Source: Cavenderia fasciculata (taxonomy: Eukaryota; Evosea; Eumycetozoa; Acytosteliales; Cavenderiaceae). From it: a stretch of 64,000 nucleotides of DNA. The position numbers were made by a program, and so were the translations under genes. Below, one piece after another: positions 9,410-64,000 of the stretch (the first letter of the stretch is position 1; each line of letters starts with the position of its first letter). The stretch lies in NCBI RefSeq assembly GCF_000203815.1, contig NW_004457718.1, positions 124,001 through 188,000 of the forward strand, read 5' to 3'. The notes under the pieces were generated by a model, which saw nothing but the letters and a program-made list of their open reading frames with translations, searched no databases and was not told where the DNA came from.

Positions 9410-12400
9410 ATGATGGAGTCGAATAATGTTGACGCCGAAACAACCAAGAAGTTGGTTTTGGCAAGTCTATCAAGTCTAGATGACAAGTCACAGAGTTTTA
9501 AAGTAAAGCTTGATCATCTTAATAAACTAGTCGATCTTAAAAAGAGTATTCAAGATCTTACTACCATTGTACCATATACACAATTTCTAAAAAGGTATGA
9601 TGATGATGGAATAAATCTAAATCTAAATCTAAATCAATCAATCAATTAATTAATTTTCTTTTCTTTTTTTTCTTTTTTCTATTTCTATTTTACAGTGTAA
9701 GAATATTTTTAGCTACACCACCAAAGACAATGAGAACATCAGCATTAAGGGTGATTAGATATTACACAACCAACTCCAAGTTTATTCAAGAGATTGTATC
9801 ATTAAAAATTCATTATTTTATAACAAGATGTCTCGAAAGAGATAAACATAGCGAAACAGAGAGAATACAAGCATTGAAATTGGTGAGAACCATAATGGAG
9901 ATTGATTGTTCTCTGATGCCACCTTGCATCGTCAAATCATTGGTGGCTATTGCCGAGAATCAAGAAGACAACTTTTGTCGTGTCTGTCTTGAAACACTCT
10001 GTGAAATATCAATCCGTAACCCACAAGTCTCTTCTCATTCAAATGGAATTAGAACATTATTTGATAGTGTACTAGATCCCTTTTATCAAGGTATCCAAGA
10101 ATCACTGTTAATTTCCATTCTTTATATTTTAAATGAAGAAAAAACAAGAGTTTATGTTAGAAATAGTGATTTAGAAGTAATTATAAAAAAAAAAAAAAAA
10201 AGATATCAAACATCATTTAAAATCAATTGATAAACTAACTTTTATTTATTTATTTATTTTGCTTTGTTTTAGATTATTTTATCACCATTAACCAATTCTT
10301 TAACATTGGGTGTAAAAATTAAAGGAATGAGTAAAGAAAAAGAAAAAGAAAAAGAAAAGGATGATGAAATTAACATGAAAAAGTAATATTTAAAACATAT
10401 ATATATATATATGTATATTCATACTTTTTAATCATTATTAACCTTTTTTTTATTTATTTATTTATTTATCTTTAGATGGGTAGGATCAAACAAAGCTGTT
10501 GTAACATTATTAAAAAGTTGGATTGGTATAATATCATTGGCATCAGATGAACATGGATTAAAATCAATTGTTGATGCTTTAAAAATGCCCCAACTTGAAT
10601 TACATGTATTTATCTCTCAATCAAATATTAGAAAAAAAATGGATCAGATGATTAATCATTATACTATATATTTTGTTATTCTATAGGATAAATTATTAGA
10701 ATCGTTATTTGAAATATTTAGATTGGTTTTACCAAAAAATACAGGTGATCCATTTAGACCACAAAAACAATCACAAGCGATCAATATGGGACCTGATGCA
10801 TTGTCAGACTTGCCATCGAGAACTCGGTCACTTCGACACAACCTGTTGAATAATTATATAGCTGTATTATTAATTGCATTTATCGAGTGTGGATTGATTG
10901 AAGGTTTGGTTCATTTGGGCAACACTACACAAGGTGCAATCATGGGATTGTCACATGACAATGACAAGGAAAAGGAGATGCACCGATTGGTGGGAACTAA
11001 AGCAACCGTCTTGCTTGGTGAGTTGTTGCATTTGTCCAACTCGTTGCTTCCACCTTCTCAGTGTGCACGACTACAGACACTACCAGCATTGGTCAATTCG
11101 GCCATCTCATTCCGTTTGGATCCTCGTCAGAGATCGCGTTCTTCGACCATGGTCACCAACTTGCACAGCTTTTCGCATGTTAAATCGTCAACGACATCGT
11201 TTGACAATACACTTGCCATCACGCTAACCGGTGCCAACAAGTGGCGTCGTATCAAGGGACAAGACCGTCGTTTGGACAAGATCGACGATGTCAAGATGAA
11301 GATGGACTATCTGATGGACGATCAACAGTTTCAACAGCGTCTCAAAGACACTCAGGTACTCGTTACCAAAGACGCTGGCAAGTGGAACTGGGAGATTATC
11401 TTTGAAATCCTTGAAGGTCCTCTGTCCAACGTCAACCACCTTGCAAGCGCTTTGAGAACCAAGTTTATCAAGCGTATGCTCTCCTTTTTGCGTCCATCCA
11501 ACAAGATGTTCTCGACGATGGCATGGACACCCGAGAACCTCAAGTTTGTACGTGTTGCATGCGTCACCCTCGAGGTTCTCATCTCATACGACATTGGCTT
11601 TGAGTATCTCAAGGACAACAAGACCATCGTGCAGATATCAGAGATGCTCAAGCTCGAGTTGGAGATTCACCAAAATGCCGCCAAGGCTGGTACGCCCGTA
11701 CCTCAAGGCTCCCACGATACCAAGGGTGGTCGTTTACTCTCGCCTGAAAAGGTCCTCAAGACCATGGCTAGAGAATACTTTACCATGTTGGGTACACTCA
11801 GCAGCAATCTCTTGGGTCTCGAGATTATGAGTCGTAATCATATCTTTGACTATATCAAACCACTGGCCGAACTCCCAGGAAGAGATGATTTGTCGCATCT
11901 CATCATGACATCGCTCGACTATAACGTGCCAGGTGCCAGTCGACACATCCTCCAAAAGATTCTCACCTCCAACTCGAGAGTCGTACGTTATCTTGCCACC
12001 AAGTACATGCGTTACTTGTTGCGTTCGGGTGCACACGACTTTTCAAACTGGGGTGTCGAGTTGCTTGTTGCACAACTCAACGATCCCGATACCAAAGTGT
12101 CACAGTTGGCGTTGAATGTATTGGACGAGGCGTGTGACGATCCAAACGGGCTTGACTCGTTGATCCACCTCCAACCACCTCTTCTCAAGCTCGGAAAGAA
12201 TGGAAAGAGTTTAATGTTACGTTTCCTCTCGCGAAAGAGTGGACTAGACTATTTGTTGGGCACCAGCTTTGTCGAGCAAGAGGAAAAGCTCTGGTTGTCT
12301 GGTGAAAATGCCAACTATGTCATTCAAGTCGAGGGTGCCATCTCAGAGGCATTGACTCCACTGATTTGGCGTCAACGTGAAGCACCAGACCAAGGCAACA

Positions 12401-13149
12401 ACGGTGTCTACCTCCCACCACATTTCTACGGTGAATTGGCCAAGACCGAGGAAGGATGTGATATTTTAAAGCGTAGCAATAGTTTCCCAACCTTTGTCAA
12501 GATTGCTACCGATCAACGTGCCAATCCACTTGAGCGTCGTGCTGCCATCTTTGCAATTGGTCAAATTGGATCGTCGCAAGCTGGTTTCCGTTTTCTCGAA
12601 GACCATAATGTCGTCCCATTGATTGTAGAGATGGCTGAAAAGGCAACTTGTCTCTCGCTTCGTGGCACTTGTTTCTACGCACTCGGTATGATCAGTTGTA
12701 TCGAACGTGCCAACGAAATTCTATCCAAATGCGGATGGGAGTCTCCATCAGACTTGACATCTCGTATCTCTGTACCAAAAGACTTGCAAAAGAGTACATT
12801 CCTCAAAATCACACCCTATGACTTTAAGGGATCTTGGGCTGGCAATGCAGTAGATCCCCTTCAATCACTATTGGACAATGCCATCAAACAAGAGATTGTC
12901 ACCTTTGTCGGTAACTTGGCATCACACATCACTGCCGAGACTGCTTCAAAGAACCTCAAACGTCTCAAGTTGAAACACCCAGATTTGTTTGCCTCTGGAG
13001 ACATGTTGTTTATGGCATTCTCGCTATTGGATCATTACAAGTATCGTCTTATCACTCGTCGGTTTATCTATGATTGTTTCGATACTGCCATCTTTTCTTC
13101 TGATCCTTTTGAAAGTATTACCAATTTTGAAAATTTAGTAAAAAAATAA
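9410..13149 (+). CDS. piaA: Pianissimo/Rictor, TORC2 subunit
   Basis: Five exons, 9410-9594, 9696-10176, 10273-10382, 10476-10605 and 10687-13149, closing in frame to 1122 residues. Helical-repeat protein of the Rictor/Pianissimo family. The conserved Rictor block lies near residues 914-980, with ERRAAIFAIGQIGSSQAGF and LSLRGTCFYALGMIS. Upstream armadillo-like segments include SNWGVELLVAQLNDPDTKVS. In D. discoideum Pianissimo is a cytosolic TORC2 subunit needed for chemoattractant activation of adenylyl cyclase and for chemotaxis; length and domain order fit that orthologue. A Lys/Glu run in exon 3 is a small low-complexity insert. The long last exon is GC-richer than the short 5' exons, consistent with stronger codon bias. 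The start is the first ATG of a tandem ATGATG. Confidence 0.93.
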
Positions 13150-14863: not shown

Positions 14864-17800
14864 ATGAAGAGATTAATCATAGTAATATTAATACTAGTAT
14901 TTAATATTTGTATGTTTGTGTTTAAACAAAACAATAATCAAATAAGAGTGTATTCTGCTGCTAATCTATTTTTCTTTTATTCCTTCTTTTAAGACTACGT
15001 AAACTCATATTTAAATGAATATGTTCAAGGAAAAGTTAGTGACCTATTCTATGACTGTTCATCAGGTGAGTCGTGTAGATGTCAAGCTACGTTCTTTATG
15101 ACATTGAATAGTACATCTTTATTGGTTCAACCAGTCTCTACAGGTTCAACAGACTATGACTATATCAATCAAGAGTATAAATCTATCGTTTCTCAAGGTA
15201 CACTCACAACAATCTATGTAGAGATGTGGAATAGACCTGGATACAACACCTATCCAATATTATCAGTTTCCAACATGGAATCGGATGCCATCGATGTTAC
15301 TGTACCGTGGATTTGTCAAGAGCAACACTTTCAATTCAAGTTGACCCCTATTCAACGCTTAGGATTCCTTTATGTTGTGGGTGTGTCTACTATCAACTCG
15401 ACGATGGACATCTCACCAGCATATGGGAGTTCTCCTGGATTTGCCCTTGTTGCTTACATTGCCCGTACATATTTAAATGAAGTTAACCTATGTGTCCTCC
15501 CATTAAAAAATCAAACATCAGTATTATCCTACAATGATCCTCTCACCTTGCCAATAACAACACCTTTAGTTTCGACAAATTATACCATCCCCAATATCAC
15601 TCCATTTGGTAAGTATAAACAAAAACAACAACAACAACAACAATAATATTATTAAAAAAAAAATGATAGGATTATTATTAATTTTCTCATTTCTTTTTCT
15701 TTCAAGTCAATTTAACATTCATTTCAGCAATTCATTATCCTACAGTACAAGTATATGTAGAGTATGGACAAAGTGGACAGATTAATTCATTTATCAATGT
15801 TCAAGGATACAACAAACCAGCTATTGTTTTTAGTGAGTTTGGATCTGTTTTCCCAATGCTTGGTAACAGTCAAGACATGCAATTAGTGAGTGCAGATAAA
15901 TTTAACTATCAAGGGATTACAAATCCAATAGTCTCTCAAACGTTTTATAATATTCGTGGTCCTACCCTAACTCCCATTCTTCCATCTCCAAAATCATTTG
16001 ATTTGTATTTTCAAGGTAAAAAAAATCAAAGACTAATACTACTACTACTATTACGACGACGAATATAATATAATTAATTCATTATTTATTTTTAATTATA
16101 TATATATAGATCCTCAAACTTTTTTTACCAATTCTACACCAATAGATTTGGGACCAACACTTGGAACATTGAATTTAGTAATGGGTGATTACTTTAATCC
16201 AGTTAAACTATACTATCAATCAAATGTTGAATACACCATTCCATATCCATATGGATACAAACACAATTACGATGAACAACTCAACCTTATTCGTTACAGC
16301 TTTTCATTCTTGACAGGTGTTTTCAATTTTAAAGCAACAATCTTGTTTCGTCAAACTACTCAACTATTTGATGAGACAATTAATTTTTATTTACAAGGTA
16401 CCATAGAAGAAGAAGAAGCAGGGAAGAAGAATAATCAACTTTTCCTAACCAAACTTTTTTTTATTTTTGTCTAGATACTTTGGTCCCAATATTAGTTTCA
16501 GTTGATTTCCAACCATTCTCTTCTGATAGTTTTATCGTTACTATGAGAATTACCGACAACTTTAGTGGAGTGTACAAGATTGAATTTGGCACCAGTCCAG
16601 TCAGGAGATTCTATGCATCGGATACTCTAATCTCTGGAAATGAATTGGACGGAATCTATGTATTTGAATACTCATATTCTTCAATAGACACTTCACCGCA
16701 TTTAATCAATATTTACGATAACAATCAAAATGTTTTACAAATTGAAAAGGATATTTATGATATCAATTTAACTAAAATCCCACCAAGACCTTTTAATCCA
16801 ATTTGTATGTATAAAAAAAAAATAATAATAATAATTAATATATTTATTTTATTTTATTTTATTTAGTACAAATAACATCAGATGATTTTACACATTTTGA
16901 ATTTTATCCAAATATTGTAAATACTAGTTTAGGTCCAAGTATGGTCACTATGTTGTTTAATTTGACCGAAAATTTTCCAAGAGATACTTTGGTTAAATTC
17001 TCTTTTGGATGGAATTCTCATATGCTTTATTACACAGATTTGATGATGCCAGTCATTGCCGAGTATCATCCACCCGACAATATGTTTAGAGCTGATTTCT
17101 TGATCCCTGCCAACACTGAAAACTATACATTGACATTTGCTAAAACTTCTTTCTCTCCTATTGATGCCATTCAAGCTTCTTTAATTGAAAAGTTTGGTTC
17201 TCAAGCAAAAGTTGATTTAGTTTCAAATTGTAAGTAAAAACAAAAATGAATAATATTAATTAATTATTAATGTTTAATTCTTTTTAATTTTTAGATTTAG
17301 ATATTAAACCACCAATGGTAACTCGTTTAGTACCAATACCAGGCAATAATATAATGAATAGTGGTGCAGATTTCTTGGTGGGATTTAATATAACTATTGT
17401 AGATCGACCAAATGGATTCAGAGAAGGAACTTGGAATATTAAATCTAGTATTGATGGAAAGCTTTATTCTTTTAAATTGGATAATAGTACAAGAGTTTCT
17501 GGTGACCAATTTGAAGGAACCTACCAAGTGAATTGGACTATGGACGGATCGTACTGCCAAAACCAAACATTTTCAACATACAATATTTCGTTGGTCGATC
17601 AATCAGGTGCTACTTCTGAATACCCAAGTTTAATGAATTTCGAACCAGCCGTCCACTTGGATCCATTTATTCAATTAATCACTTCACCACTCAATTTATT
17701 TATCAACTATAACTGTTCGGTCCCTACAACAAGTGACTCTGTACCACCAACCATTCTTGCATTCAGTTTTACCCAAGACAACGATGCAAGAGTCGTCAAC

Positions 17801-19453
17801 TTTGACCTAACCATTCAAGATGCACTCGTTGGCATATCACTTCGTCACAACCCAGTAGTTTATATTTGGGACAAGAATGGAAGATATGTGTCGATTGAAT
17901 CAAACAACAGAATCATTCACAACGTTTCAACAGTTTCGTATCAATATTCAACACAACTAACCTATTCTGTGGCCAGTACACCTAGTCTAGTGTCTGTTTA
18001 TGGATTGGTTGATAAGAATTTGAATACCGATGGTTATTCAAGCGCTGATTTGAAATCAAATGGGTTCCAGTACGATATTACAGTCCCTCAATCACCAGAT
18101 GTACCTGTATTGTTTGAATCTACATCAGTTTATAGAATTGGAGGTATATTAACGGTACGAGGTGCTAAACTAGGTGACTCTACACTGCCCAATCTAGTCG
18201 CATTTATCGACTATGGAAATGGAGAAGAGATGGCACCCATCGACATGGTATACAATGTTGGATTACATGTCAAGGTTGGAACCATACCCTCTACAACCAC
18301 AAAACTAATTCTTCGAGTTAGATCCAACGTACCATCCCAACAGTACTCTAATAAATTGGTTATTCAAGTCAAAGAGTACAAACCTACAAGAGTCATTCCA
18401 CCCAACCCAGAACCAATTCCGTGCCCAGGATCACCGTTGGTGTGTAGTGGAAGAGGACAATGTACCAATGATGGATGTGTTTGTGTAGCACCATGGTTTG
18501 GTCCAGCTTGTACAAGTCAGGTCGTTCCTGTAAATCCTCCTATTCGAAATGAAACTGATCCAACTGTCATTATAGGTGGAGGTAATGGAACAAGTGGTGG
18601 GAATGGTACTGGAGGAAACCAACCAATTAAAGTTAGAACAATCATCTCTATAGTTGCCATTAGAGAATTGTCCTATGACGGAGTAGAAGTTGCAATGCAC
18701 AAGTTTTCAAACTGGACGCTCACCGATCAATCCAATTCCACCCAAGACAATATTCACAACAGCACTCAATTGTACAACTATCAAACATTGATGAACCAAA
18801 ACTCAACCCTTGTCAATGTTAATATTGAATGGTTCAATCAATCCACTACCATTCAATTTGCACAGTCCAACATTACATTGCCACCCTTTTCAACCAAGAT
18901 TTCAATGTCATTGTCTAGATATGATTTTGCAAGTATTTTAAATACCCTCCAAGTTATATTTAAAGTAACCTTTCAAGATGATGAAGGAATAGATAGATGT
19001 GTTGAAAAGGGGTATGGATTGGGTAACGATGACAACCAAGATGATGTGCAATGGCTAAAGATCCAAATAGAGGATCAAATGTTGTATGGTCAATTTATTA
19101 GAAGAGCATTGGTTGATGGTCGTCCAAATAATGTCCGTAATGTCGTATTGGATGGTTTGTTTGGTGACACTCTATCTACCGACTCTTTTATTGGTATCAA
19201 CATACCTCACTACTCTTTCAGTGCAACTATTGATCCCAACTTTTCAAATCTAATCAATTTCGATGGTGAAACACCTAGTTGTGGTGACACCAACAAACTA
19301 TCAAATGGTGCTATTGCCGGTATTGTAGTAGGTTGTGTCATTGCACTAGCCATTGTAATTGGTACTATCATCCTCATTAAAAAGAAACATACTCAAAAAG
19401 GTTACGAAATACAAATGAAAAAGAAATTAGATTCTTTTAATAAAAGTCAATAA
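14864..19453 (+). CDS. ComC-like surface protein with repeated ectodomain modules
   Basis: Seven exons: 14864-14909, 14994-15608, 15707-16015, 16110-16397, 16475-16804, 16867-17229 and 17295-19453. They total 4110 bases, in frame, giving 1369 residues. Exon 1 encodes a signal peptide. Exons 3-6 all begin and end in phase 1, and each encodes one module of about 96-121 residues, likely the DUF7034/DUF7035-type domains of dictyostelid surface proteins. The last exon holds a further repeat, an IPT/E-set-like segment, an EGF-like module near residues 1026-1060 (CSGRGQCTNDGCVCVAPWFG), the ComC-type domain and a membrane helix near 1321-1345. A 24-residue Lys-rich cytoplasmic tail follows. Many N-x-S/T sites support an extracellular location. 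Role inferred: cell-cell recognition or adhesion. Its ectodomain differs from the three LRR-type genes downstream, but the C-terminal half is homologous. Confidence 0.85.
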
Positions 19454-19561
19454 ATAAGAATAGAATAGTTTGTATTGAATTTAAATACAATTATATTATA
19501 TATTATATATGAATAGTCTGTTTCTGTACAAGTTTATTCATTTTTGTTTTGTTTTGTTTGT

Positions 19562-20143
19562 TTAATAAGTTGATTCAAAGAAGGTTTTTGATTGCTTGGA
19601 ATCTGGGATCATGGTCTTACCACCCTTGGTCCAGTTGGCTGGGCAAACTTCACCGTGGACATCAGTGTATTGGTAGGCTTCAACAAGACGGAGAGCTTCA
19701 TCAACGGATCTACCGACTGGGTTATCGTTGAGGGTGATTTGCTTGACGAGACCGTCAGCACCAATGATAAAGGAACCACGGATGGTGTGTCCGTCTTCTT
19801 CGATAAAGACACCATAGTCCTTGGCAATTTGGTGAGTAAGATCAGAGACGATTGGGAAGTTGATACCACCCAAACCACCTTGCTTACGTGGGGTGTTGAC
19901 CCAAGCCAAGTGAGAGAATTGAGAGTCTACTGAACAGGCAATGATTTCACAACCAATCTTCTTGAATTCCTCAGCACGTTCGCTAGCGAAATAAATAAAA
20001 GATATTAATATAAAGATTTGAAACATCAATGCTTTTTCTTTTTTTTTTTCTTTTGTTTAAACAACACTTACGAGAAGGAGATGATTTCAGTTGGACATAC
20101 AAAGGTAAAGTCGAGTGGGTAGAAGAACAAGTATACGTATTTA

Positions 20144-20177
<34 letters not shown>

Positions 20178-20365
20178 GTGTATAGAATTATGATGATATT
20201 AGTATATTGAAATACAAACTATTACTACTATTGATTGTTGTTTATAAACATACCCTTGAAGTCGTCCAAAGAGACGGTCTTGAATTCACCATTGACAACA
20301 GCTTGAGCGGTGAACTTTGGAGCTGGCTTTCTGATACGGATTTGTTGCTTGTGTGGGCAGGACAT
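19562..20365 (-). CDS. Typical 2-Cys peroxiredoxin
   Basis: Three exons on the minus strand, 20365-20254, 20144-20072 and 19982-19562, giving 201 residues, the usual length. The peroxidatic cysteine is Cys54 in [10 protein letters not shown] and the resolving cysteine is Cys175 in HGEVCPANW. Also present are the ACSVDS block and the GGLGG loop. The enzyme reduces hydrogen peroxide and alkyl hydroperoxides using thioredoxin; no signal peptide is seen, so it is likely cytosolic. The GGLG motif associated with over-oxidation sensitivity is kept, but the C-terminal Tyr-Phe motif is replaced by Phe-Phe in TFFESTY. Intron 1 contains a pure AT dinucleotide run. The start MSCPHK is the ATG at 20365. 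The longer upstream ORF reading is AT-rich and unlike a peroxiredoxin, so I rejected it. It is convergent with the neighbouring ComC-like gene. Confidence 0.95.
20146..20174. repeat. AT dinucleotide run inside an intron
   Basis: About 14 copies of AT directly before the acceptor of intron 1 of the peroxiredoxin gene (minus strand). Replication slippage here could change intron length but not the protein. Confidence 0.85.
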
Positions 20366-20874
20366 GTCTAATTCTTCAAAACAGTGATGATGACTGAATA
20401 TAAATTTAATATTAATATATATTACATTAAAAACTGTGTGCGAGTACAGAGGTGTTTGCGCATAGTCTCTTGCGAGGATGAAGATCAAAAAAATAAATAA
20501 AAAAATAAAAAAAAATGTTGGTGTGTTTTCTTTCGAATGAACCCCCCTCATTCCATGCGTCTATAGGGTCATATGACACTAAAAAAAGTCACAACGAGAG
20601 AGAGAATGAAATTCCATCCATCCGTGGAAGTAAAACTCGTAATTACTACTACGAGTAAATAACAAGTATATATTATTGAATATACCTATAGAAGTATCTA
20701 AGATCTAATTAGATCTATTGTAATCTTCTCTTCTGATTGAAATAGGTTGGTTGTTGGTTGGTTGGTTGGTTCATTCTTCTTCTTCTCCAATCAAATTCTA
20801 GAAGAGATGAAAAAGAAGACTGGACTAATGGTAATGTATGGATGGGATGATGAGAAATGGATGGGATGAGAAAC
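20366..20874. other. Upstream region of the peroxiredoxin gene
   Basis: Mostly non-coding, with a poly(A)-rich stretch (about 20490-20520) and a TTGG tetranucleotide run near 20748-20770. On the minus strand, 20701-20780 could hold a short second exon of the small gene at 20875-21087. That idea is speculative and is described there. Confidence 0.45.
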
Positions 20875-21087
20875 CTACTGACTACAATCATCGTTAGAGG
20901 ATGATGAGAATTTAGAGATGAATGATGAAGAAGAAGAGATCGATGGAGTAGTGAAAAGAGTTGTTGATTTGGTCATCGAGAAGGTTGGTGCAGTCGATGT
21001 CGATGATGACAAGGAAGCAAAGTTACTCTTGTTGACTGATGCAACAACTCTAGATGTGACTGATCTGATACACTTTAAACTATTCAT
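20875..21087 (-). CDS. Small hypothetical protein, mitochondrial-type N-terminus
   Basis: A 70-codon ORF in a GC-richer island, which argues that it is coding. The first 30 residues (MNSLKCIRSVTSRVVASVNK and on) lack acidic residues and have spaced Arg/Lys and Ser, as in a mitochondrial targeting peptide. The rest is Ser/Thr-rich. No family recognised. It may be a first exon: a donor-like GTCAGT lies just before the stop, and a TCTTCTAG acceptor about 80 bases further along the minus strand would add a short Arg/Gln/Asn-rich end. The opposite strand has a 69-codon ORF at 20918-21127 that is acidic and less convincing. Confidence 0.35.
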   Translation of the reverse strand: MNSLKCIRSVTSRVVASVNKSNFASLSSSTSTAPTFSMTKSTTLFTTPSISSSSSFISKFSSSSNDDCSQ

Positions 21088-21497
21088 TTCTATGTTCTCT
21101 CTTTTACAAAATATGAAAATCGATTAAAGATTAGGTAGGTTCTGTCCTCCCTTTGTTTTGTTGATCATCACATTTTTAATTAAATTAATTTATTTATTTT
21201 TCATTAGTTTTAAAGAACCCACAGCACTTTTAACTCAATGACCATCACCGTCAGTCTTTTTGCAACATATATAAATTAAATTAATATAAATAAGATATTA
21301 TACTACTACCAGATAAAGAACAAGATAGATAGATATCATATGATCAAGGAAAATAATTAAAAAAACAATTATCCATTTCAAAGAAAGAATCTTTTCATCT
21401 TTGTTTTTGTAGAGCTCTAACAACAAAGAGAGAGAGAAAGGACAGTTCATTCATTTACTTTATTTTCTATACAACAAAGAAGACTTTTTAAAAGAAG
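21088..21497. other. Non-coding intergenic region
   Basis: AT-rich spacer with no accepted ORF. It separates the small minus-strand ORF from the plus-strand hypothetical gene at 21498 and probably holds both promoters. Short purine runs (GAGAGAGAAAGG near 21427-21440) lie just before the next gene. Confidence 0.5.
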
Positions 21498-22037
21498 ATG
21501 ACGTGGTTACCATCACCAAGCAAATCACTTAAAGGTGTTTTCCTATTTTGGTCACCTCTCAATATGAACAGATACTTTGTGTTGGAGAGAAATGTTATTT
21601 ATACAATACATCCAGCTGTTATGTTACACCAACAACAACAACAATCACATTATCAACAACTAAAGTTACAACAACAATCACATCATCATCATCATGGTCA
21701 AAGCCAATCATCATCATCAGCGCCTCCACCTCCACCACCACCATCAATGCCTAAAATAATAGAATTACTGTCATTATTTTCACATGTAGATAAAAAAGAA
21801 ACCTATAGAATCAAATCAAGATTGAATGTATTTGTACCTGAACAAATTGCAACATCAAACAATCTACAAGACATTGAAAATAATTGGGATCACTTGGAAT
21901 CCGAATTATATCCAGCATTGAAAAAAATGGAATCGAGCACCGATAAACAACAGGCACTTGTAGCATACCTAAAACGTAAACAACATTTTAAAAACTTTAT
22001 ACCTCAACCTTCTTCCACTTCCACTTCATCTAGTTAA
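21498..22037 (+). CDS. Hypothetical protein with Gln/His/Pro-rich linker
   Basis: Single exon, 179 residues, starting at ATGACGTGG. The N-terminal 40 residues (GVFLFWSPLNMNRYFVLERN) resemble the opening strands of a PH-like fold. This is followed by a linker rich in Gln, His, Ser and Pro (about residues 45-92). A C-terminal helical part runs from about 93 to 170 (LSLFSHVDKKETYRIKSRLN; LYPALKKMESSTDKQQALVAYL). I do not recognise the family and the PH suggestion is weak. The balanced composition of both ends and the ordered C-terminal half argue for a real protein. It lies alone between the peroxiredoxin gene and a ComC-like gene. Confidence 0.6.
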   Translation: MTWLPSPSKSLKGVFLFWSPLNMNRYFVLERNVIYTIHPAVMLHQQQQQSHYQQLKLQQQSHHHHHGQSQSSSSAPPPPPPPSMPKIIELLSLFSHVDKKETYRIKSRLNVFVPEQIATSNNLQDIENNWDHLESELYPALKKMESSTDKQQALVAYLKRKQHFKNFIPQPSSTSTSSS

Positions 22038-22086
22038 AAGGAAGGGATTCCCTCCTTATTGGACAACAATTGTATAATAAATGTAA

Positions 22087-22117
<31 letters not shown>

Positions 22118-22390
22118 TGGATATATATATATATATATATATTTATTCCAATAATACTTAACAACCTGTGCAGTCCTGACTCGACCTGAAATAAAAAAAG
22201 AAGAAAGATCAGTGTTCGTTGAAAAGGTTGTATATCTCAAGATATTTAGGTTGACTTTTAATCAGAAGAATAATAGTTGTTGGAACCATTCCTATTCGAA
22301 TGGTTATGCTCGAGTATTGGAAGCAATGACAGACATGTGGATGTTAGTTATAATGTAATCTTTTTAATATAAATACTGTGTATTACAATA
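22038..22390. other. Non-coding intergenic region with microsatellites
   Basis: Contains a TAA/ATA run (about 22088-22116) followed by an AT run (about 22120-22142). A short inverted repeat lies near 22285-22305 (AACCATTC...GAATGGTT). It probably includes the promoter of the ComC-like gene at 22391. Confidence 0.55.
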
Positions 22391-25300
22391 ATGATGAAAA
22401 GGTATTTACTTTATTTATTATTGTTGATCATCGCACCACTTTTCTTTGGTGGTTATGATCGTCATCATCATTTTGCTTTTGCACAAACAATACCTGCTGA
22501 AGAATGTAAGTACGATCATCATCATTATGATCATTATGATCACATGTCATTTATTCATCTATCCTCTATCGTGGCGATCACAACTAATATTAAATCTATA
22601 ACTTTATTATACTCTCACCCACACTGCAGTAAATAGTGCAATATGGATCATCAAACAATATCGACTCGATGTACCAATGGATCAGACAATGTGTAGTAGT
22701 ATAAATTTCGCTGTTTGCAAGATATCTATTGATGGTTTATATCATTTAACTTCAATGTATGTCTATTCATATCTAGAGAATGATAATTCTTTGTATCTAA
22801 CCATTTTTATTTTCATTTGTTCAGTCGTTATACTGGAGATACCTATTTAATGACCAATGGAATGCCAGATACAAATCTACTAGCATTTACCTTTCCATTT
22901 TTGGAGAATCTGATCATTCCTACTCCATCTGTCATTGCCGACCCTTCATTAAACATGCTCAACTTGATCAAAAATTTAACTCAACTTTATTCATTTGTGT
23001 ATGTAATACAAACAAGTATACTATAGCGCTATAGAGTACTCTTTGTTGGTTTTACTTAATTTAATTATTAATACATATATTTATTTATTTATTTATTTAT
23101 TTAGGATACAAGGGGTTGGTGATCCATCAATCACAACCATTCCAATTGGATTTATGCAACAAGTACCAAATATCCTATCGTTTGTATGTCTGTGCAGCAT
23201 TACAGACATTCCACAATTAGGTTCAAATAGCAAATTGCAACAATTGTCCATCGAATCCAAAACTAATATTAATTTTGTGATTGATGAATCTGTTTCATTG
23301 CCAGCACTCCTGGAGCTCTCTATCAACTATTCTCCTTCGTCTCCCCAGTCACATCGCATCACTCAAGCTTCATTCCCAAAAATTACTCGACTTTCCTTTA
23401 TCTCTGATACATCTTACAAGATATCAATTCATCATTCAACAACTAAACCAAATTTAGAAATGTATGTATCCTAATATAAATGATAGTATTATTTTTTCAC
23501 AAACTCACCGACCACCATTCATTCACAAAATAGCTTTTTAGGAACATTAATATTTCAACCAGCTGTTTGGTTTGAGTTTACTACTACTAATCCCTCATCA
23601 ATCAAAAGTCTTGCTATTCATGGGAAATATTCAACCTATTCCCCTTCCGATTTAGAGAATGATTATCCCAACCTCGAATATTTAGTATTAAGTCATATTC
23701 AATTCCTAAATCAATACCCTTTTTCAAACTTTCCTCCAAAATTAAATAGTTTGTAAGTTTGCTTGTTTAAATTAATCATATCTTTTAAAAAGTCTCTCTC
23801 TCATGATTTACTAAAAAAAACAAAAAAAAACATCTAGGAATATATTAAATGCAGGTTTAAAGATAATTCCATCCATTCCTATACCATCTCGTATGAATGC
23901 ACTGTAAGTATTTTTGAACAGTCAGTGAAATCATAAATCATAATAATTATTAGTTAATTAATTAATTTATCTATCTATTATTTTTTATTTAGTGGATTTT
24001 ATAACAACTCTTTAGAAACAGTACCATGGGGAATATTTTCAGACCTAACATCATTTAATATGAGAGTTCATTTTGACCTTAATTTAAATCTGGGTGGATC
24101 AGTTCCACCAATGTTGTGCAACAAGATCAACTACTTGTCAATCACTAATACTGCTTTGGTATGGGTGCCAGACTGCTTTTGGTGCTACCAAAGTGGTCAC
24201 ATGTCGACTCAGTTACCCAAACCAGCAGGGTTTACATGTCCGATATCATTGACAACGCCAGCAACCATCAAAACCATTGTTGGAAAGACCAAGATAGAGG
24301 GTCAAAACATTGGGTGGGGTCTAGTCACTCCGGAATATTCACTTGTACATGTCATTCCAAACTCTAATCTATTACTCCAAATATCTCAATATGCCAATTA
24401 CCTTGTCGAGAAACCTCTGGCGGTCTCATTTTTAGCCGGTGGCTCTGCAGAGTATAACTACACATTTAATGTTCAAGAAGTTGGAATATTATTTAATTCA
24501 GCGATATTTACTTTTATTCAGCAACCTGGTGCAGTTACATTTATAGTAGGATTTAGATTGTATAATCCCAACATTCCTCACACTGCCACTATTGATGACA
24601 CTATCGATTGTGTACAAGATCTTGGTGAAGACACCAAACAATTTTTCACTTGTTATTCAGTTCTTGTTACCAAAGCCTACACTATGACTATTTCAAATGC
24701 TTATACAATGTCAAGTTTCCAATTTAATTATATTCAAAGTATATATACATAGTAAACAAAAAAAAAATAAGAGTAATAATATTTTTACTAATTTTATTAT
24801 ATTTTTAGAATATCCTGTAGTTTCATCTGGATCAGTTAATAATGGAACGACAGGAGATTCAAAATTAATTAGTTTGACAGGTGATTTTGGAAACAATGGT
24901 CAGAATAATGCATCTGTATTTATCAATGGTACCATACCATGTATTGTAAGCTTTGCAAGTCGCGATATTATCAATTGTACCATTTCATCATTAAATAGTT
25001 TTGGTAGTGCATCTTTAATGGTTTCAGTTGACGGTGCTCTATTTAATAGACCTAATATGCTTTATTTTGCACAACCACCAAATAATAATAATAATGGAGG
25101 AGGGGGATCACTAAAAGAAAAGTGTGAAAAAGATACTCATAATTGTTATGGTAATGGTCAATGTCAAGACAATGGTCAATGTTTATGTAATACTAATTAT
25201 AATCCAACTGATAATTGTTTAACTCAATGTATGTTGTAAAAAAAGAAAAAAAGAAAAAAAAAGAATATTAATATTTATTTAATATTTATAGTTTTCAATG

Positions 25301-26166
25301 AAACAATACCAATTGAAGCAAATCAAACTGCACCAACTACAAGATTTGAAATTGATGGTGTTGAATTTTTATTTGAATTATATTCAATTCAAGAATTGGA
25401 TGTTGACGGAGAGACTGTTATACACGAAGTGATTGTTGATAATTGGAATTCGACTATAACAACATCTACCAATACAACAACAGCCAATTATGTATTACTA
25501 TCAAATGAGACTACTGCACAAGTGGAAGCAGACATTTCATTCTCTGCCACTGCAAGACAAGCCACTTTTGGAGAAACCAATTTCACAATCAATCCAAACT
25601 CTATCAAAGTGTCGGTATCTATCAACAATTGGGAGTATTCAAGTAATATAGCAACACTACGAGTTTTATTTAAAACAGTATTGAGTAACAACCAAGCAGT
25701 TGGAGTATGTGGAGAACAACAATCAATCGATTCTTTGTCATACGACTTTTCAGGTAGTACTATACAATACCTAAGAGTTGCCAAACAAGGTATACAATTT
25801 ACAGGTAGATTCTTGGATTATGTCGTATCGGATGGTCGTACCACTTACTCCAAGACAGAATTGGTATCTTTGAAATCACTCAACGGTAGCAGCAGCGATC
25901 AATCAGTTGCTATGATTGGTATCAACTTTCCTCAATGTCAGTCATGTTTACTTGACCCCGACTTTACACCATTGATCATTGACAATAGTCGTATTACTGG
26001 GTGTCCAAGTGATTCCTCCAACACTTGGAAAATCATCGTCGGTGCTTGTGTTGGTGGAGTAGTCTTTATAGCATTGCTAGTAGCTATCATATTTTATTTA
26101 AAAGATAGTAATACTTTTAGATTAAGAATAAGAAATGCAAAAAGTATTATATTAAAGAAAATATAA
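22391..26166 (+). CDS. ComC-like LRR surface protein, copy A
   Basis: Nine exons: 22391-22505, 22630-22756, 22825-22998, 23105-23461, 23534-23752, 23838-23903, 23993-24738, 24809-25228 and 25292-26166. The sum is 3099 bases, in frame, giving 1032 residues. A signal peptide (about 1-30) is followed by a module with SAIWIIKQY, then leucine-rich-repeat-like segments (PSIPIPSRMNAL; LETVPWGIFSDL; GGSVPPMLCNKI) ending in a Cys-containing cap (VPDCFWCY). An E-set/IPT-like domain (about 602-690), an EGF-like module (about 706-741, HNCYGNGQCQDNGQCLCN) and the ComC-type domain follow. The membrane helix is near 987-1011 and a 21-residue basic tail closes the protein. D. discoideum ComC is needed for cell communication in development, so a cell-surface recognition or signalling role is inferred. 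It is tandem with copy B, 310 bases away. Confidence 0.87.
23015..23040. repeat. 26-base near-palindrome inside an intron
   Basis: CTATAGCGCTATAG forms a perfect 14-base dyad, and flanking AGTA/TACT extends it to 26 bases with two mismatched positions. It lies early in intron 3 of ComC-like copy A and contains a CG-rich centre unlike the surrounding AT-rich intron. Confidence 0.7.
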
Positions 26167-26476
26167 AATATAAATAAATAAATAAATAGAAATACAAAAA
26201 AATAAATAAATTAATGGGTGAGACTATTCGGGTTTGATGAGGTTTTAATCGAAAATATCTAGATCCGTTCCGTATCTATTAACAACCCATGGATGATGAC
26301 ATGATCTCCAATTCATTGAATCTATATCGCTATCTAAGCTGTTTACCTACGTCCTAGGTAGGCGCTACTAGCCTAGTATTGTTATTAGTTAGATATCAGT
26401 CTATAATTCATTATAATAGTACAGTACAGTACAGATAGATAGATAGATACCTACACAGATAGAGAGAGAGAGAGAG
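26167..26476. other. Non-coding spacer between two ComC-like genes
   Basis: Between copies A and B. It starts with an AAAT run, then a more mixed-composition stretch (26215-26400) holding partly palindromic CTACGTCCTAGGTAG-like sequence near 26350, then GATA and GA repeats (26433-26477) abutting the start codon. No ORF or tRNA fold was found. Confidence 0.5.
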
Positions 26477-27564
26477 ATGAACCATTCTCTTTTGTTTATC
26501 ACAGTTAGTCTATTGTTGATAGTATTCAATACTAGTAGTAGTAGTGTAAAAGCAGGTGATCTACCAACAGATGAACGTATGTAGAATAATTGTCAAGATC
26601 AACCAAATCAGTCCTCACAACCAACTAACTAACTAACTTTTACCGTTGTTATCTTTTTTTTAAAGTAAATAGTGCAATGTAAGATTACAAAGAAATTAAG
26701 ATATAAAAGGAAAATGATGGTGTTTATATATATATTGACATTTGTTACTTATTTACTTTTTAGTTGGATTATAAGACAATATGGATTGTTTTCAGTACCT
26801 CAAAACCAAACACTATGTTCGTATGGTGTGTTTGGTTGTATGACTGATCCAGAAACAAACCTAAATCATATTCAATCAATGTATGTATATACATCTTAAT
26901 AATGCAACCTATTATTTACTAACTAACTAAACGTATGATCAAAGTAATATACCTCAATCTGCATATATGGGAGGTTCACCACCCTTTATAGAAAAGTTTG
27001 ACTTTCCAGAACTAAAATCAATTAATATTTTTGCTTCTATTCCATTGGGTGACATTAGTCTAAACTTTCTTTCTTTTATTAGAAATATGCCGAAACTTTT
27101 GTCTATAAAGTAAATATTAATATTGTTAATATATATTTGTTAATATTAACCTCTCCTCTCTCTCATTTCTCTCTTATTTATTTTAAAATTTAATAGAATT
27201 CAATGTCCAACAGTAAAATTTATACCAAATGATTTTCCAACTGGTTTACCTTTATTGAAATCGTTTGACTCTCTCGAAAGTCCTGTTACAATGGCTCCAA
27301 CCTTTTTTAATAATTCCAATTTAGAGATAATTAATATTGGATCATCGGTATTTGGATCTTTTAGAATAGATGAATCTCTAAATCTACCTCTACTCTACCA
27401 ATTAAAGTTCAATGTCAATTCAACGATAAGCCCTAGTGTTACTTTTACATCAAAGACTTTCCCAAAGTTACTCAATCTTATCATTCAGAGTGATACTACT
27501 AAAAAAATAACCGTTTTTATTAATACCTCTCCACCTCAATTATTAGATGTGTATGTATAAATTA

Positions 27565-27595
<31 letters not shown>

Positions 27596-30346
27596 ATATG
27601 TATATATTTATATTTATATATTTATATTTATACATTTCATTTTATTTAGAGCATTAATTAGAAAATCAAACGGTACTATCTCTCAACGTCAAGTAAATTT
27701 CGATTTAAGGGTGTTGAACCCTTTATCACTAGCTAGGGTGGCATTGGTAGGTGAAAGTTCAACAATTACACCATTCCCTTTGGATTCCTATAAAAATCTA
27801 GATTCATTGTCGATTTCATACTCAACATTAACAACCTATCCATTTACAATACCTTCCCCAAATTTATTGTCATTGTAATGTATTATTTAAAAAAAATCAA
27901 AGTTTAGGTTTACAATCAACTAATGTTTTTTTTACTCTCTCTCTCTCTAGACTATTGACCGAATCAATGTTTGCCTCTATTCCAAATGTTCGACTTCCTT
28001 CTTCACTGCTCTATTTGTATGTATCAACTATTATTATTATTTTTAAGATCAAATCTATTAAACTGTATATTTTTAAAATAGAAATTTTGCAGGTAACAAT
28101 CTAAATGGAGGTATACCTTGGGATTACTTTGAAAACATTAATTCTCCTTCAATGTAAGAGTTTTTGTTGGTGAACATACTATAGAGTGTTTCTATCGAAT
28201 ATTATATTTACATTTACCATATTTGTTTTTTTAGTAACATTGAAAATAATCCCTATGTAATTGGATCAGTTTCAGAAGATGTATGTCATTCTAAATTGAA
28301 TATCAAGGGAACAAATCTTACAAGTGCTCCAAATTGCCTGTGGTGCTATTTTGATGAAGGTGTTCTCTTGACCAATCTGAACCCACCATCCACAATGGTT
28401 TGCTCTCCATCGGTTGATAATGCCGAGGTGTTTACAATATTCGGCAGTGCCATCATAACAGGTTCGCTTCTTGGGTATGGTAATCCTTCACAACCACTTT
28501 ATACACTCAATGCAATCATACCCAACAAGATGTTAAAGATTCAAATGAAACCTCCATTTTCAAACTACTATACCAAAACAAATATGGCTATTCTCACATC
28601 CAACATGTATTCATACTCTGTGCCATTGGCCATCCTTGAGGTTGGATTCAACGCCACTACCATCGATGCAGTGCAAGTGGCTCATTCCGTCATTTTTTCA
28701 TTCGCATTTTCAGCAATCAATCCCACCATTGAATATTCTGCCGATATTGGTCCCACAGTGATCTGTCAAAATCCACAAATCGACTCAGTCACAGGTTTAT
28801 TAACTTGCTCTACTCGAGGTGCCCTACCCACAGGATCATATAATATATCCATTTTCAATGAATTCTATTCATCTTCTATCATTTATCAATATAATCAAAG
28901 TATGTTAAAATATAAAAAAATAATTAATAATAATAATAATATTAATTAATTATATTTACCTATTTATTTTAATTTTAGAGTACCCAGTTGTAAATTCAGC
29001 AGAAATTAACGATTTTAATAGTACAAAAAAGGTTATTAGTTTATTTGGAAATTTTGGTTCTCAAGTCGATGTTACTATCATCTTTAACAACACTGTACCA
29101 TGTATTCCTAATCACCTTTTCATGTCAAATATAAATTGTACAATTGATGCCTCTAGCTTGGGGTATGGGTCTGCATCTATTTTTGTTTCTTCTGACGGAG
29201 CAAACTTTACACGTTCCAATATGTTCTATGTTCAACCTCCACCATCTTCAAACAACGGCTCGACAACAACTAGTTCCACCTCTGGAGGAAACTCACCTAC
29301 TCCAAAAGAAAAATGTCAACAAACAACACATAATTGTTATGGTAATGGTCAATGTCAAGACGATGGTTCATGTCTATGTAATACAGGTTATAATCAATTT
29401 GATAATTGTTTAACAAAACGTATGTAGTGAAATTTAAAATACAAAATACTATTTTATAATTATTAATATTTACAATTTTATTTAATTTTTAGCTATAAAT
29501 AATACAGTACCAATTGAATTTAATACAACTGCACCAGTAACAAGATTTGAAATTGATAATATTGAATTTATGTTTGAAATGTATTCAGTCCAGGAATTAA
29601 CATTTGATGCAGTCTCTCAGGAAGTTTTAACAGAGAGTTGGAATTCAAACATTACAAAACAAGGGGATCTGACTGTTGCCAACTACACTTTAATCAGTAA
29701 TGATACAAGTGCAAATATAACAGCCACCATTTCCTTTTCATCACAACAAAGAATTATATCTTTTGGTGGTAAAAATCTAACCATTCCACCAAACGCTATC
29801 AAGGTGGCAGTTTCCATTAACAATTGGCAATTCCAAAGCAATATTGGTACTCTTCGTGTTATCTTTAAAACAATTGTCAACAATCAACAAGGAATCAGCG
29901 TTGGTTGTGATGAGCAAGAAAATGTAGATCTATTTGCCTACGATTTCTCAGGCAATACCATTCAATACTTAAGAGTTTTAAAGGAAGGTATTCAGTTTAC
30001 AGGAAGATTCTTGGATTATGTTGTATCAGACGGTAGATCAACCTATTCTACCACAGAACTAGTATCATTTCAACCAAGAAACAACAGTGCAGATGAATCA
30101 ATTGCCATGATTGGTATCAATATGCCTCAATGCCAGTCATGTTTGCTTGACCCAGACTTTACACCATTGATCGTCGATACAAGTCGCGCGGTTGGGTGCC
30201 AAGACGTTGATTCAAATGTATGGAAATTGGCAGTTGGTATCAGTGTTGGAGGTGTTGCATTTATAGCTTTGGTAGTCGGGATATCTATTTATCTGAAACG
30301 TCATACCAAATTAAGATATACAATATTTAAAATGTCTAGATTATAA
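26477..30346 (+). CDS. ComC-like LRR surface protein, copy B
   Basis: Eleven exons: 26477-26576, 26666-26678, 26764-26880, 26945-27109, 27197-27550, 27650-27874, 27951-28016, 28082-28153, 28235-28899, 28979-29419 and 29493-30346. The sum is 3072 bases, in frame, giving 1023 residues. The order matches copy A: signal peptide, SAIWIIRQY module, LRR-like exons (two short ones of 66 and 72 bases), Cys cap (APNCLWCY), E-set/IPT-like domain, EGF-like module (about 707-739), ComC-type domain, membrane helix (about 982-1005) and basic tail. Exon 2 is only 13 bases, supported because copy A encodes the same residues in one exon. The 3' end lies 41 bases from the end of inverted copy C. Confidence 0.87.
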
Positions 30347-30387
30347 TAAATAAAAAGAAAAATATATTTTATTTATTATATTTATTT

Positions 30388-31759
30388 TTATCTCTTTTTC
30401 ATTGTAATACGATTTGAGTTTCTAAATCTCATTCTAAATAGATTAGAGTCTTTTAAATAAATTACAGCACCAACAACCAATGCTATAAAGACTGCACCAC
30501 CAACACAAGCACCAACTATGATTTTCCAAGTGTTGGAGTTGCTTTGATTAGAGCATTCGTCGGCTTGATTGTTATCAATGATCAATGGTGTGAAATCAGG
30601 GTCCAGTATACACGACTGGCATTGTGGCATACCCACTCCAATCAGTGCAATCGATTCATCTGGATTAGAGGTTGATTTGTTGAGTGAGACGAGTTGGGTT
30701 CTTGAATAAGTTGAACGGCCATCTGATAATACATAGTCTACGAATCTACCAGTAAACTGTATACCATTTTTAACAACCCTAAGGTATTTAATGGTATTAG
30801 AATATGAATCGTATGAAAAAGAATCAATTGATTGCTTTTCCTCACAACCAACATCAAAATCTTGTTGGTTGTTGACCCATGTTTTAAAGATTACTCGAAG
30901 TGTAGCAATGTTGTTGTTAAACTTCCAGTTTGCAACTCCAACAGTTACCTTTATCGAATTGGGATCGATCGATATGTTTTGGTTGCCAAATGCTACTGTA
31001 CGTGGTTGTGACGAGAATGAAACCGTTGCAGTAACATTTGCCAAAGTATCATTACTCGATAATGTATAATTGGCAACAGTCAAATCACCAATGGTTGTAA
31101 TATTAGAATCCCACTTGTCAGTCATCACTTGTTTGATGACAGTCTCACCATCAACATCCAATTCTTGAATAGAATACATTTCAAATCTAAACTCTACACC
31201 ATCAATATTAAATCTTGTAACTGGTGCAGTTTGATTTGCTTCAATTGGTATTGTTGTATTTAAATCTAAAAAATTAAATAAAATAAATAAAATAATTAAT
31301 AATGAGCGATAATTTTAAAATTGTGTCGACTTACATTTAGTTAAACAATTATCCAATTGACTGTAGCCTTGATTACATAAACATTGTCCATTGTCTTGAC
31401 ATTGACCGTTACCATAACAACTATGAGTTTGTTGTTGACATTGTTCTTTTAATGATGTTCCATTGTTTGTATTGTTTGGAGTGGGTGGTGGTGGAAAGTA
31501 TATCATATTTGGTCTTGTAAAGTTCAAGCCATCGACTGAAACCAATACCGATGCTAATCCAAAATTATTATTAATTGAAGGTATGTTACATGTAATTAAA
31601 GTTGGCGTTGCATTTAATAATGCACATTCGGTGCTATTGATTGTTACAGAGAGATTCGATAATGCAGTTCCAAAATCTCCATACAATTCAATTTCAACAG
31701 ATTTATTTTGTTGTACCACAAATGACGCAGATGAAACCGTTGGATAATTTGGTTCTATT

Positions 31760-31800
<41 letters not shown>

Positions 31801-34075
31801 ATTTCCTAATTAATTTAAATATTTACCAGGAGTAAAACGAAGGATTCTTGCAGCATTGGTAAACTCATTAGAGACACTAATTTCCAATGGACTGGGGCCA
31901 ATGATACCGGTCAAGATACATGATACAACAGCATTACTACTGTAAAATTCAAAAATACATGGAATGGTCGTGTTGACCTTGATGGTGTGTTGGATATTGG
32001 GATTATAAACTTTAAATGGGATGTATAGTCTAATATTGTTATTACCAATCTCCATACGACGATATGAATCTGAAAGTTGTATACCGACTTCGGTAAAAGT
32101 GATAGTGTTTTCATAGTAGGGATAGGCATCTGACAATGTGAAAGTGAATGGAGTTGGAGTATAGAAATCACTGAATGGTCGGTTTAAAACAGAAAGTCGG
32201 AGTTTACTGTTTGGAATGATTGCTGCTATTTGAACTTTTGAATCAGTTCTTCCATAACCAATGTTGGTGCCCAACAATAAAGTCGACCCAAGAATGAGAT
32301 TGGCAGTTGTATTTCCATTATTCAAATAAATGCTACAATGAAAATCCTGTGGTGGTGTAATTGATGAAGTAAAAGCACTTACATCTTGTACAAAACACCA
32401 AAAACAATCTAAAAAATAATTAAATAATTAATTAATTAATAAATAATAATTAAAAAATAATACACTTTACATACCAGGAATTTGAGTATTTATAAAACCG
32501 GTAGACTTGATAAAGAGTCTAGCTTTGCACATACTACTGGGGATAACTCCAGATAGATTTTGATTAGATGATAAATCAATATATGGACTATCAACATTAT
32601 CCCAAATGTTCCATGGTATTGTTTGTAATTGATTCCCTGAAAATGAAACGCTACCCAATTGTGGTGGAAATGTAATATTTGAAATACTTGAAAGATTATT
32701 TCCTACAATATACCTTTTTAATGATGATGATGATGAATTTGGTCAGTATAATAATTTAATAATGAAAATGAAGAATGAGATACATCTTTAACATACATGG
32801 TATTTAACTTTTCAGGGTAGGTTGTGTTGTATGGAATTTCAGTAACATTGGCATTCAACAAATTTAAAAGAGCAATTTGGGTAAATGACAAAAAAGGTGG
32901 TGAGATGGTTGACAAATAACCAGAAAAGGTAAACACTTGAACAGAGAGAGGATTTGCTACAGTTAGAGCAAATCTCGTTGTTGATGATAGATATGGTTTT
33001 AATTCACTAAAAAGAGAGAGAGAGAGATATTAATTAATTAGTTTTTGCCAATTGATCAATATTCATAATCTATAACATGCATACATGACTTGTACATTGG
33101 CTTGAATATCTACAGTAATCTGGGTAGAAGAGTATGACTCGATATAGACTGATTTGAGAGATGGACATGAACTGATAGTGAATACTATGGTTTGTGGTTG
33201 GGTAGCATTGATGGCAATCGAAAATGATTTGAGAAAAGGTAGACTGAGTATAGATGGTACATTGGTTAACGGATACCACATCTCTATGCTTGTGACACTA
33301 GAACCGTCAAAAAAGTTATTCGTGATTGTAATTGGTGAGTATCCAGATGAGAACTTTGTAAGATTGGGTATATCAGATGGAAAATCAATTGGTATCTCTG
33401 TTAATGCTGCATCATTTACACTACAAGAATAATTAGGTTAGATTATATTATGATAATAATAATGATGATGATGGATGATTGTTAATACATACGAAATGGT
33501 AGATAGAGATGGAAGATTCTTTAACTTTGAAAGAATATTGTTAGATGTTTTGTTTAGATCCATGTTTGTTCGTATTGATATGGATTGTAGTTTTGGAAAG
33601 TACAAGGAATCTAATAATGGATCGGGATCACCATTATCAATCGGTGATGATACATCAATGACACTATATATCAATGAAATAAATGTATTTGTTAGGAATT
33701 GTTGTTTCTTTTTTGTGGTGGTGCTGGATTGCAACAAACGTTCATACTTACATGTTGATTACATGAGCAACAGAATTAGGAGGATCATCAGCACATTTAA
33801 AGGTAGGATAGGAATTACTACATAATGTTTGATCTTTTGGGACTGGTACACCATAGTTTTTGATCAACCAAACTGCGCTTGCAACTATAGTTATAGTATT
33901 GTATGATAATAAATCAACATCGTTGATTAGTTTGTGCACACGTACACGTGATAGAGTGATTGATGCATTCTGATAAGTTTTACTTACGCTCATCTGCAGG
34001 TAAATCAAAAGAGATGGTGCTTGTTGTGAATAACAACAACAACACAATCAAACAATAATAGTATTGTCTTTTCAT
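30388..34075 (-). CDS. ComC-like LRR surface protein, copy C (inverted)
   Basis: Nine exons on the minus strand: 34075-33988, 33884-33752, 33663-33493, 33420-33085, 33006-32797, 32713-32475, 32408-31827, 31754-31335 and 31265-30388. The sum is 3057 bases, in frame, giving 1018 residues. Signal peptide, SAVWLIKNYG module, LRR-like segments (LQTIPWNIWDNV; LSGVIPSSMCKA), Cys cap (PDCFWCF), E-set-like domain, EGF-like module (about 693-726), ComC-type domain, membrane helix (about 972-996) and basic tail. One intron present in A and B between the short LRR exons is absent here, while an extra one splits the exon before the Cys cap. It is tail to tail with copy B. A perfect 12-base-arm palindrome lies 48 bases before the start codon. 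Confidence 0.86.
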
Positions 34076-63900: not shown

Positions 63901-64000
63901 GATCCATTGGCAACCAATGTCATTGTACGAATTGATGCAGAGTTGTTGAAAAAGGTTGGTGCCGATTCAATTGGTGATCCAATTCTCAGTATTTCCAATT
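60949..64000 (-). pseudogene. ComC-like LRR surface protein, copy D: 5' partial and frameshifted
   Basis: Minus-strand exons within the window: beyond 64000-63721, 63612-63406, 63319-63254, 63171-62435, 62343-61933 and 61857-60949. The start lies outside. LRR-like exons, including a 66-base one as in copies A and B, lead to the Cys cap (APNCFLCY), the E-set-like domain, the EGF-like module (HNCNSNGVCNDLGSCQCN), the ComC-type domain, a membrane helix (IIVGSCVGGAIFLSLVCALAYYL) and a Lys-rich tail. In the last exon a run of five A on the coding strand (T at 61458-61462) puts the reading out of frame: upstream it ends soon after ATLRVLFK, and downstream the paralogous sequence resumes in the next frame. 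Four A, as the alignment to copies A-C implies, would keep one frame. It is either a young pseudogene or a homopolymer sequencing error. Confidence 0.75.

Follow-up and report, generated by a model that had tools for sequence, protein, structure and literature searches.

A stretch of 64,000 nucleotides of the Cavenderia fasciculata genome (31.0 Mb, 21 contigs), referred to here as the window, contains several genes encoding predicted single-pass surface proteins with a membrane-proximal ComC_SSD domain (PF22933; hereafter also SSD). The window corresponds to positions 124001–188000 of contig NW_004457718.1 (C8). Three of the genes, named A, B and C, belong together with two further copies, D and E, to a large family with a leucine-rich repeat-like (LRR-like) outer part. 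In arrays located elsewhere in the genome, the C-terminal module of this family appears to have been homogenised by recombination.

Gene A (22391–26166, plus strand) encodes a protein of 1032 aa. Its nine exons are located at 22391–22505, 22630–22756, 22825–22998, 23105–23461, 23534–23752, 23838–23903, 23993–24738, 24809–25228 and 25292–26166, and its ComC_SSD is located at 25351–25968 (C8:149351–149968). Gene B (26477–30346, plus strand; 11 exons, 1018 aa; ComC_SSD at 29555–30163, C8:153555–154163) lies in tandem with A, and gene C (34075–30388, minus strand; 9 exons, 1018 aa; ComC_SSD at 30589–31209, C8:154589–155209) is convergent with B. All models were obtained with a gene finder and annotated using Pfam, and the positions of ComC_SSD were found both by a profile search of the genome and by Pfam. 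Note that exon boundaries were predicted by computation and that some of them, including the last exon of A, were set by hand. An intron placed by the gene finder near the end of A (26080–26157) was discarded, as the reading frame continues uninterrupted to 26166.

The proteins A, B, C and E have the same order of parts: a signal-peptide-like start, an LRR-like part ending near residue 390–412, two TIG-like stretches, an EGF-like module, ComC_SSD, a transmembrane helix and a short basic tail. The signal peptide and the helix were read by eye. ComC_SSD scored 89.6 bits in A, 86.6 bits in B and 85.1 bits in C (E-values 3.1e-25, 2.6e-24 and 7.2e-24, respectively) at a Pfam cut-off of 24, and its assignment is beyond doubt. 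An earlier note made from the DNA letters had described a ComC-type domain common to four proteins, and this was confirmed, ComC_SSD being above the cut-off in A, B, C and a further gene that ends at 19453. The single membrane pass, EGF-like module and basic tail claimed in the same note were recovered as an architecture in A, B and C, with the helix seen by eye and the EGF match below the Pfam threshold; the module preceding the SSD contains six cysteines with an EGF spacing recognised by eye. The outer part is called LRR-like because the LRR matches were sub-threshold and the repeats were read by eye, and the claim of an LRR-like ectodomain in A, B and C was retained in this reduced form, no LRR model being present at the cut-off. 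Among A, B, C and E, a TIG domain above the Pfam cut-off was found in C alone, in its second stretch (23.2 versus 20.9 bits); TIG scored 17.1 bits in E and was not reported by Pfam for A and B. Single-sequence fold prediction for two exons of A led to models with a mean pLDDT (predicted local distance difference test score) of 36.3 and 38.1, and in a PDB search the membrane helix gave the single match (E 0.86).

A fourth LRR-type copy was also proposed earlier. This copy, gene D (minus strand), is present at 60949–64000, but its start lies outside the window, near 64828, and its frame shifts within the SSD exon near 61460 (61400–61500). Gene D is either a pseudogene or the result of a sequence error. 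The first exons of the D model are approximate, since the hand-set 5′ end leaves stops in exons 1–3; the first gene-finder model, which overran into E and placed an intron across the frameshift, was rejected. Gene E (L009), an intact fifth LRR-type copy, adjoins D at 65195–69194 in window numbering, outside the window.

The further ComC-type gene (14864–19453, plus strand), referred to here as the 19453 gene, is of a non-LRR type. Its model is reliable from 14994, the first exon and 5′ end being approximate, and a one-base exon in it was rejected as an artefact. According to Pfam, the encoded protein contains DUF7035, DUF7034, DUF7949/EGF and ComC_SSD; a transmembrane helix is also present. 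ComC_SSD was found in the last exon (E 7.1e-14, 52.4 bits), and DUF7949 was above its cut-off. Genome-wide, 29 matches to DUF7035 were found. By its domain content, the 19453 gene is assigned to another branch of ComC-type proteins than A–E, with DUF7035/DUF7034 replacing the LRRs.

A comparison of A, B, C and E (six pairs) bore out the statement of the earlier note that the ectodomains differ more than the C-terminal domain: the median amino acid identity was 0.31 in the LRR part, 0.25 in TIG1, 0.54 in TIG2 plus EGF and 0.65 in the SSD. The median ratio of nonsynonymous to synonymous substitution rates (dN/dS) was 0.16 in the SSD, 0.58 in the LRR part and 0.55 in TIG1, values that are unreliable at a dS of 1.5–1.7. 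At 4-fold sites of identical residues, the divergence was 0.52 in the SSD, 0.54 in the LRR part and 0.64 in TIG1, with saturation at 0.62, and it was higher in the ectodomain in five of the six pairs. Because both ends are near synonymous saturation, the amino acid gradient among these genes can be attributed to differing constraint. The DNA similarity among A–E was mainly located in the last 1.0–1.2 kb before the stop (67–73%); additional similarity was found over 390 bases between A and E, over 251 bases between D and E and in some short pieces.

Family arrangement and the C-terminal module across the genome

In the SSD profile search, 150 of 282 candidates were scored and all of them were above the cut-off. 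The genome contains at least 150 ComC_SSD matches, and the true number exceeds 150, because D and the 19453 gene were missing among the matches listed. Among the 150 listed matches, 97 were preceded, on the same strand and at a distance of up to 4 kb, by an A-like LRR/TIG exon, 6 were accompanied by DUF7035 and 47 by neither. Stops inside the SSD were found in 6 of them, the remaining 144 having none. Clusters with gaps of no more than 15 kb (26 in number) included 92 of the listed matches, whereas uniform placement led to a mean of 20 and a maximum of 39 clustered matches (1000 draws; this control takes no account of gene density or of tandem duplication in general). The other 58 matches were alone. 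Within the clusters, 58 of the 66 neighbour pairs of listed matches were on the same strand, 5 were convergent and 3 divergent. Within the genome, the family has clustered as well as scattered members, and its architecture, its size, its tandem and scattered copies and its broken copies can be read from the genome sequence. The distinct, special locus proposed in the earlier note was rejected, since the same architecture recurs genome-wide.

Large ComC_SSD clusters were observed on contig C17 at 384–461 kb and 196–243 kb (13 and 10 listed matches, respectively), and several models in the former have one more TIG-like stretch and two EGF-like modules. On contig C2, an SSD copy was found at 502–1203, at the extreme end of the contig and perhaps near a chromosome end.

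Paralogues from elsewhere in the genome were used to compare the two ends of the proteins. The gene finder was used to model 25 paralogue SSDs, two of which (L032 and L033, no stop in the piece) were handled apart. Of the remaining 23, 15 were used for identity and dN/dS; L024 was used in trees and pair dN/dS, the interrupted L015a was left out, and L019–L023 and L031 were left out since one or both anchor patterns were missing. Several array models overran into the 5′ neighbour, and the comparison was confined to stretches for which the end of the LRR part and the last EGF served as anchors.

In the C17 array (nine genes of 13 listed), the divergence at 4-fold sites was 0.58 in the LRR part, 0.54 in TIG1, 0.26 in TIG/EGF and 0.14 in the SSD (saturation 0.62), and it was lower in the SSD than in the ectodomain in all 36 pairs. 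A similar gradient was found in the C14 array of five genes (0.56, 0.51, 0.42 and 0.27, respectively), with a lower SSD value in 10 of 10 pairs. Purifying selection acting on the protein alone does not reduce synonymous divergence in this manner. A blastn comparison of 12 C17-type segments (ten from the C17 array, L024 and L025) revealed matches that mostly start 1.1–1.7 kb ahead of the stop codon and in many cases end 45–105 bases short of it, while ectodomain sisters, for example L016/L018, matched across most of their length. In the 300 bases past the stop, no likeness above that of shuffled sequences was found among the C17-type paralogues (0.38 versus 0.37).

Phylogenetic analysis of the ectodomains revealed five sister pairs with a bootstrap of 100. 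In the SSD, four of these five pairings were rejected at 0.05 by the approximately unbiased (AU) test (p 0.0008, 0.0032, 0.0105 and 0.046), and the pairing L016/L018 was not rejected (AU p 0.10). L024 (contig C3) and L025 (contig C11) are ectodomain sisters of L012b and L012a, respectively; in the SSD tree, they grouped together and apart from nine array members (94/95, just below the star of the tool). This topology fits array-local homogenisation that would have taken place after both genes had moved away. The profile of L012a was mosaic: its ectodomain follows L025, while in the last seven profile windows, from the SSD to the stop, L016 and L018 were closer to it than L025 in all seven and L017 in five. 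By eye, the tail of L012a is L025-like again. For the pair L032/L033, the identity was mostly 0.69–0.87 in the LRR part, introns included, mostly 0.87–0.97 in the TIG part, with one intron window at 0.74, and 0.975–1.00 in the last exon. A long intron stretch is, as seen by eye, also common to L014 and L017, two genes that are not paired in the ectodomain tree. These comparisons allow us to conclude from synonymous sites, match boundaries and trees that the C-terminal module (TIG/EGF/SSD) has been homogenised by recombination in both arrays (C17 and C14) and between L032 and L033. The homogenising process is probably gene conversion.

Several points weigh against this reading. The paralogues were chosen rather than sampled at random and come mostly from the C17 and C14 arrays. 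After correction for five tests, the AU p-values of 0.0105 and 0.046 fail and two rejections remain. The profile of L013a against its sister L013b gave a mixed picture in the SSD, where no clear switch could be seen. The introns before the SSD exon were weakly alike (median 0.65 versus 0.54 for shuffled sequences), so most tracts would have to be short or old. Ectodomain replacement onto existing C-terminal modules is not fully separated from conversion by these data. The window genes themselves lack homogenisation of the SSD, given their 4-fold values of 0.52 in the SSD and 0.54 in the LRR part. As for the outer part, no LRR model reached the Pfam cut-off of 27 bits (LRR_8 scored 16.2 bits in C, 16.1 in E and 23.6 in the paralogue L014).

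In five younger pairs from elsewhere in the genome, no domain-average dN/dS above 1 was found, as measured on whole domains. The values for the LRR part were 0.35–0.49, with upper limits of 0.49–0.69, i.e., below 1 in all five pairs. For TIG1, they were 0.40–0.72, and two of the five intervals exceeded 1, in pairs where dS was below 0.09. In the SSD, dN/dS was 0.18–0.21 in four pairs, and the SSD of L032/L033 was free of amino acid changes. The outer part is less constrained, but no positive selection was seen at the level of whole domains. Of the interpretation given in the earlier note, the receptor-like character, the divergent ectodomain and the conserved membrane-proximal module were retained, with TIG-like stretches recognised in addition, while the distinct locus was abandoned and diversifying selection, for which a dN/dS analysis per domain had been suggested, was not shown, all averages being below 1.

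Possible functions and relation to known systems

We consider it reasonably probable that A–E represent an old small cluster of a large surface-type family, in which the C-terminal module is homogenised elsewhere in the genome and serves as an interchangeable base. The proteins would be located on the cell surface, where the outer LRR/TIG part could bind varied ligands, either on other amoebae or on bacteria taken as food. The SSD and the membrane helix would couple every member to one partner or assembly, and new specificities would arise through duplication and divergence upon the interchangeable base. The pattern of a variable outer end and an inner end that is kept alike fits a putative role in recognition.

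The proteins A, B, C and that of the 19453 gene are similar to ComC-type proteins (PF22933), including Dictyostelium discoideum ComC, in the membrane-proximal ComC_SSD, the putative EGF-like module before it and the single transmembrane helix; the likeness to ComC was drawn via the named domain. They differ in the ectodomain, which is LRR-like and TIG-like in A–E and contains DUF7035/DUF7034 in the 19453 gene. The Tgr (Tiger) proteins are named after the IPT/TIG domain type. Like the family described here, in which the TIG-like stretches are putative, Tgr proteins, including TgrB1/TgrC1, have a single pass and IPT/TIG-like stretches on the outside, and they form a large varied family shaped by duplication and recombination. 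In contrast to them, the present family has an LRR-like outer part, an EGF-like module and ComC_SSD, a comparison made by description. Its neighbours are mostly tandem and rarely divergent, unlike TgrB1/TgrC1; in the window, A and B are tandem, B and C convergent, and no divergent pair was found among them.

PMC3188802 puts the number of Tiger proteins at 37 for D. discoideum and at 26 for D. purpureum, and it reports a tgrC1 orthologue in the latter species. In section 9 of PMC4931340, the Tgr proteins are assigned to families that all Dictyostelia possess, and Table 4 of that paper counts them by their IPT/TIG domain, with 55 to 110 proteins in the three dictyostelids listed; part of the LRR-like ComC_SSD family may already be counted there. 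The group OG5_153020 (IPT/TIG, EGF-like, C-type lectin) in Table 2 of PMC4334915 includes 9 proteins in D. discoideum (Ddis), 43 in Asub, 35 in Ppal and 50 in D. fasciculatum (Dfas). It resembles the present family in its domain description and in its expansion outside D. discoideum, and some of its proteins may be members of this family. However, 50 proteins are listed for D. fasciculatum versus at least 150 SSD matches, and the consulted part of that paper describes neither an LRR part nor homogenisation. In the portions of the literature available, the LRR-like ComC_SSD architecture and the C-terminal homogenisation were not found to be described, which is weak evidence of novelty.

The simplest alternative is that the outer part diverged more solely because purifying selection is stronger on the SSD, with no recombination involved. 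This is sufficient for the window, where the 4-fold values of the SSD and the LRR part are almost equal and amino acid constraint differs, but it does not hold for the arrays on C17 and C14 or for L032/L033, where the contrast extends to synonymous sites. As a general explanation it is quite improbable. The proteins could also be receptors for bacteria, acting in the sensing of prey or pathogens, in phagocytosis or in adhesion, in which case a large varied set would track varied prey. The LRR-like ectodomains, the size and scatter of the family and its broken copies would suit such a sensor repertoire, while the tails are short and no signalling motif was recognised in them by eye; we regard this function as a possible, though rather doubtful, one. 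A role as ComC-like developmental adhesion or signal proteins, largely redundant and drifting in copy number, is suggested by the sharing of ComC_SSD with the gene that gave the domain its name and by Table 3 of PMC4931340, where comC appears as an EGF-domain gene essential for development. Plain drift, however, agrees poorly with the number of copies, with the 144 of 150 listed SSDs that lack an internal stop and with dN/dS below 1, and this alternative is considered unlikely.

It was also considered whether some or all members of the family provide this species with its kin-recognition system, similar to TgrB1/TgrC1 in D. discoideum, in which polymorphic ectodomains on touching cells bind each other and license joint development. 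The TIG-like stretches and the combination of a variable outer end with a conserved inner end point in this direction. In addition, PMC12324515 describes duplication and recombination as a source of diversity at the tgrBC locus in D. discoideum and related species, and Table 3 of PMC4931340 places tgrB1 in group 4 only and tgrC1 in D. discoideum only, although the D. purpureum orthologue of tgrC1 in PMC3188802 speaks against the latter. On the other hand, PMC12324515 describes diverging full-length tgrB/tgrC pairs, whereas only 3 of the 66 neighbour pairs of listed matches diverge here; at least 150 SSD matches exceed the needs of a two-protein lock; no mean dN/dS above 1 was found in the five pairs; and, with Tgr families present in all Dictyostelia (PMC4931340), another system is perhaps unneeded. 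On balance, there is a small chance that kin recognition is the function of the family. The more specific idea of a recognition repertoire with a docking module (EGF, ComC_SSD and helix) kept alike by conversion, used for self/non-self discrimination outside group 4, appears improbable. Under the preferred reading of an interchangeable base, a surface-type family of this size, whose outer part diverges while its membrane-side module recombines, provides candidates for proteins that recognise cells or prey. Such candidates matter since the genomes compared in PMC4931340, as far as its Table 3 indicates, confine tgrB1 to group 4 and tgrC1 to D. discoideum.

Other genes in the window

A peroxiredoxin gene, which does not belong to the family, is located between the 19453 gene and A on the minus strand (19565–20560; 19565–20056 assigned by Pfam, 20231–20560 by eye). 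A gene for Rictor (TORC2) was found upstream of the 19453 gene, at 10687–13146. Domains DUF3638 and DUF3645 were found in a large protein encoded at 47084–50773, and a MIZ/SP-RING zinc-finger protein is encoded at 58213–59418, downstream of D.

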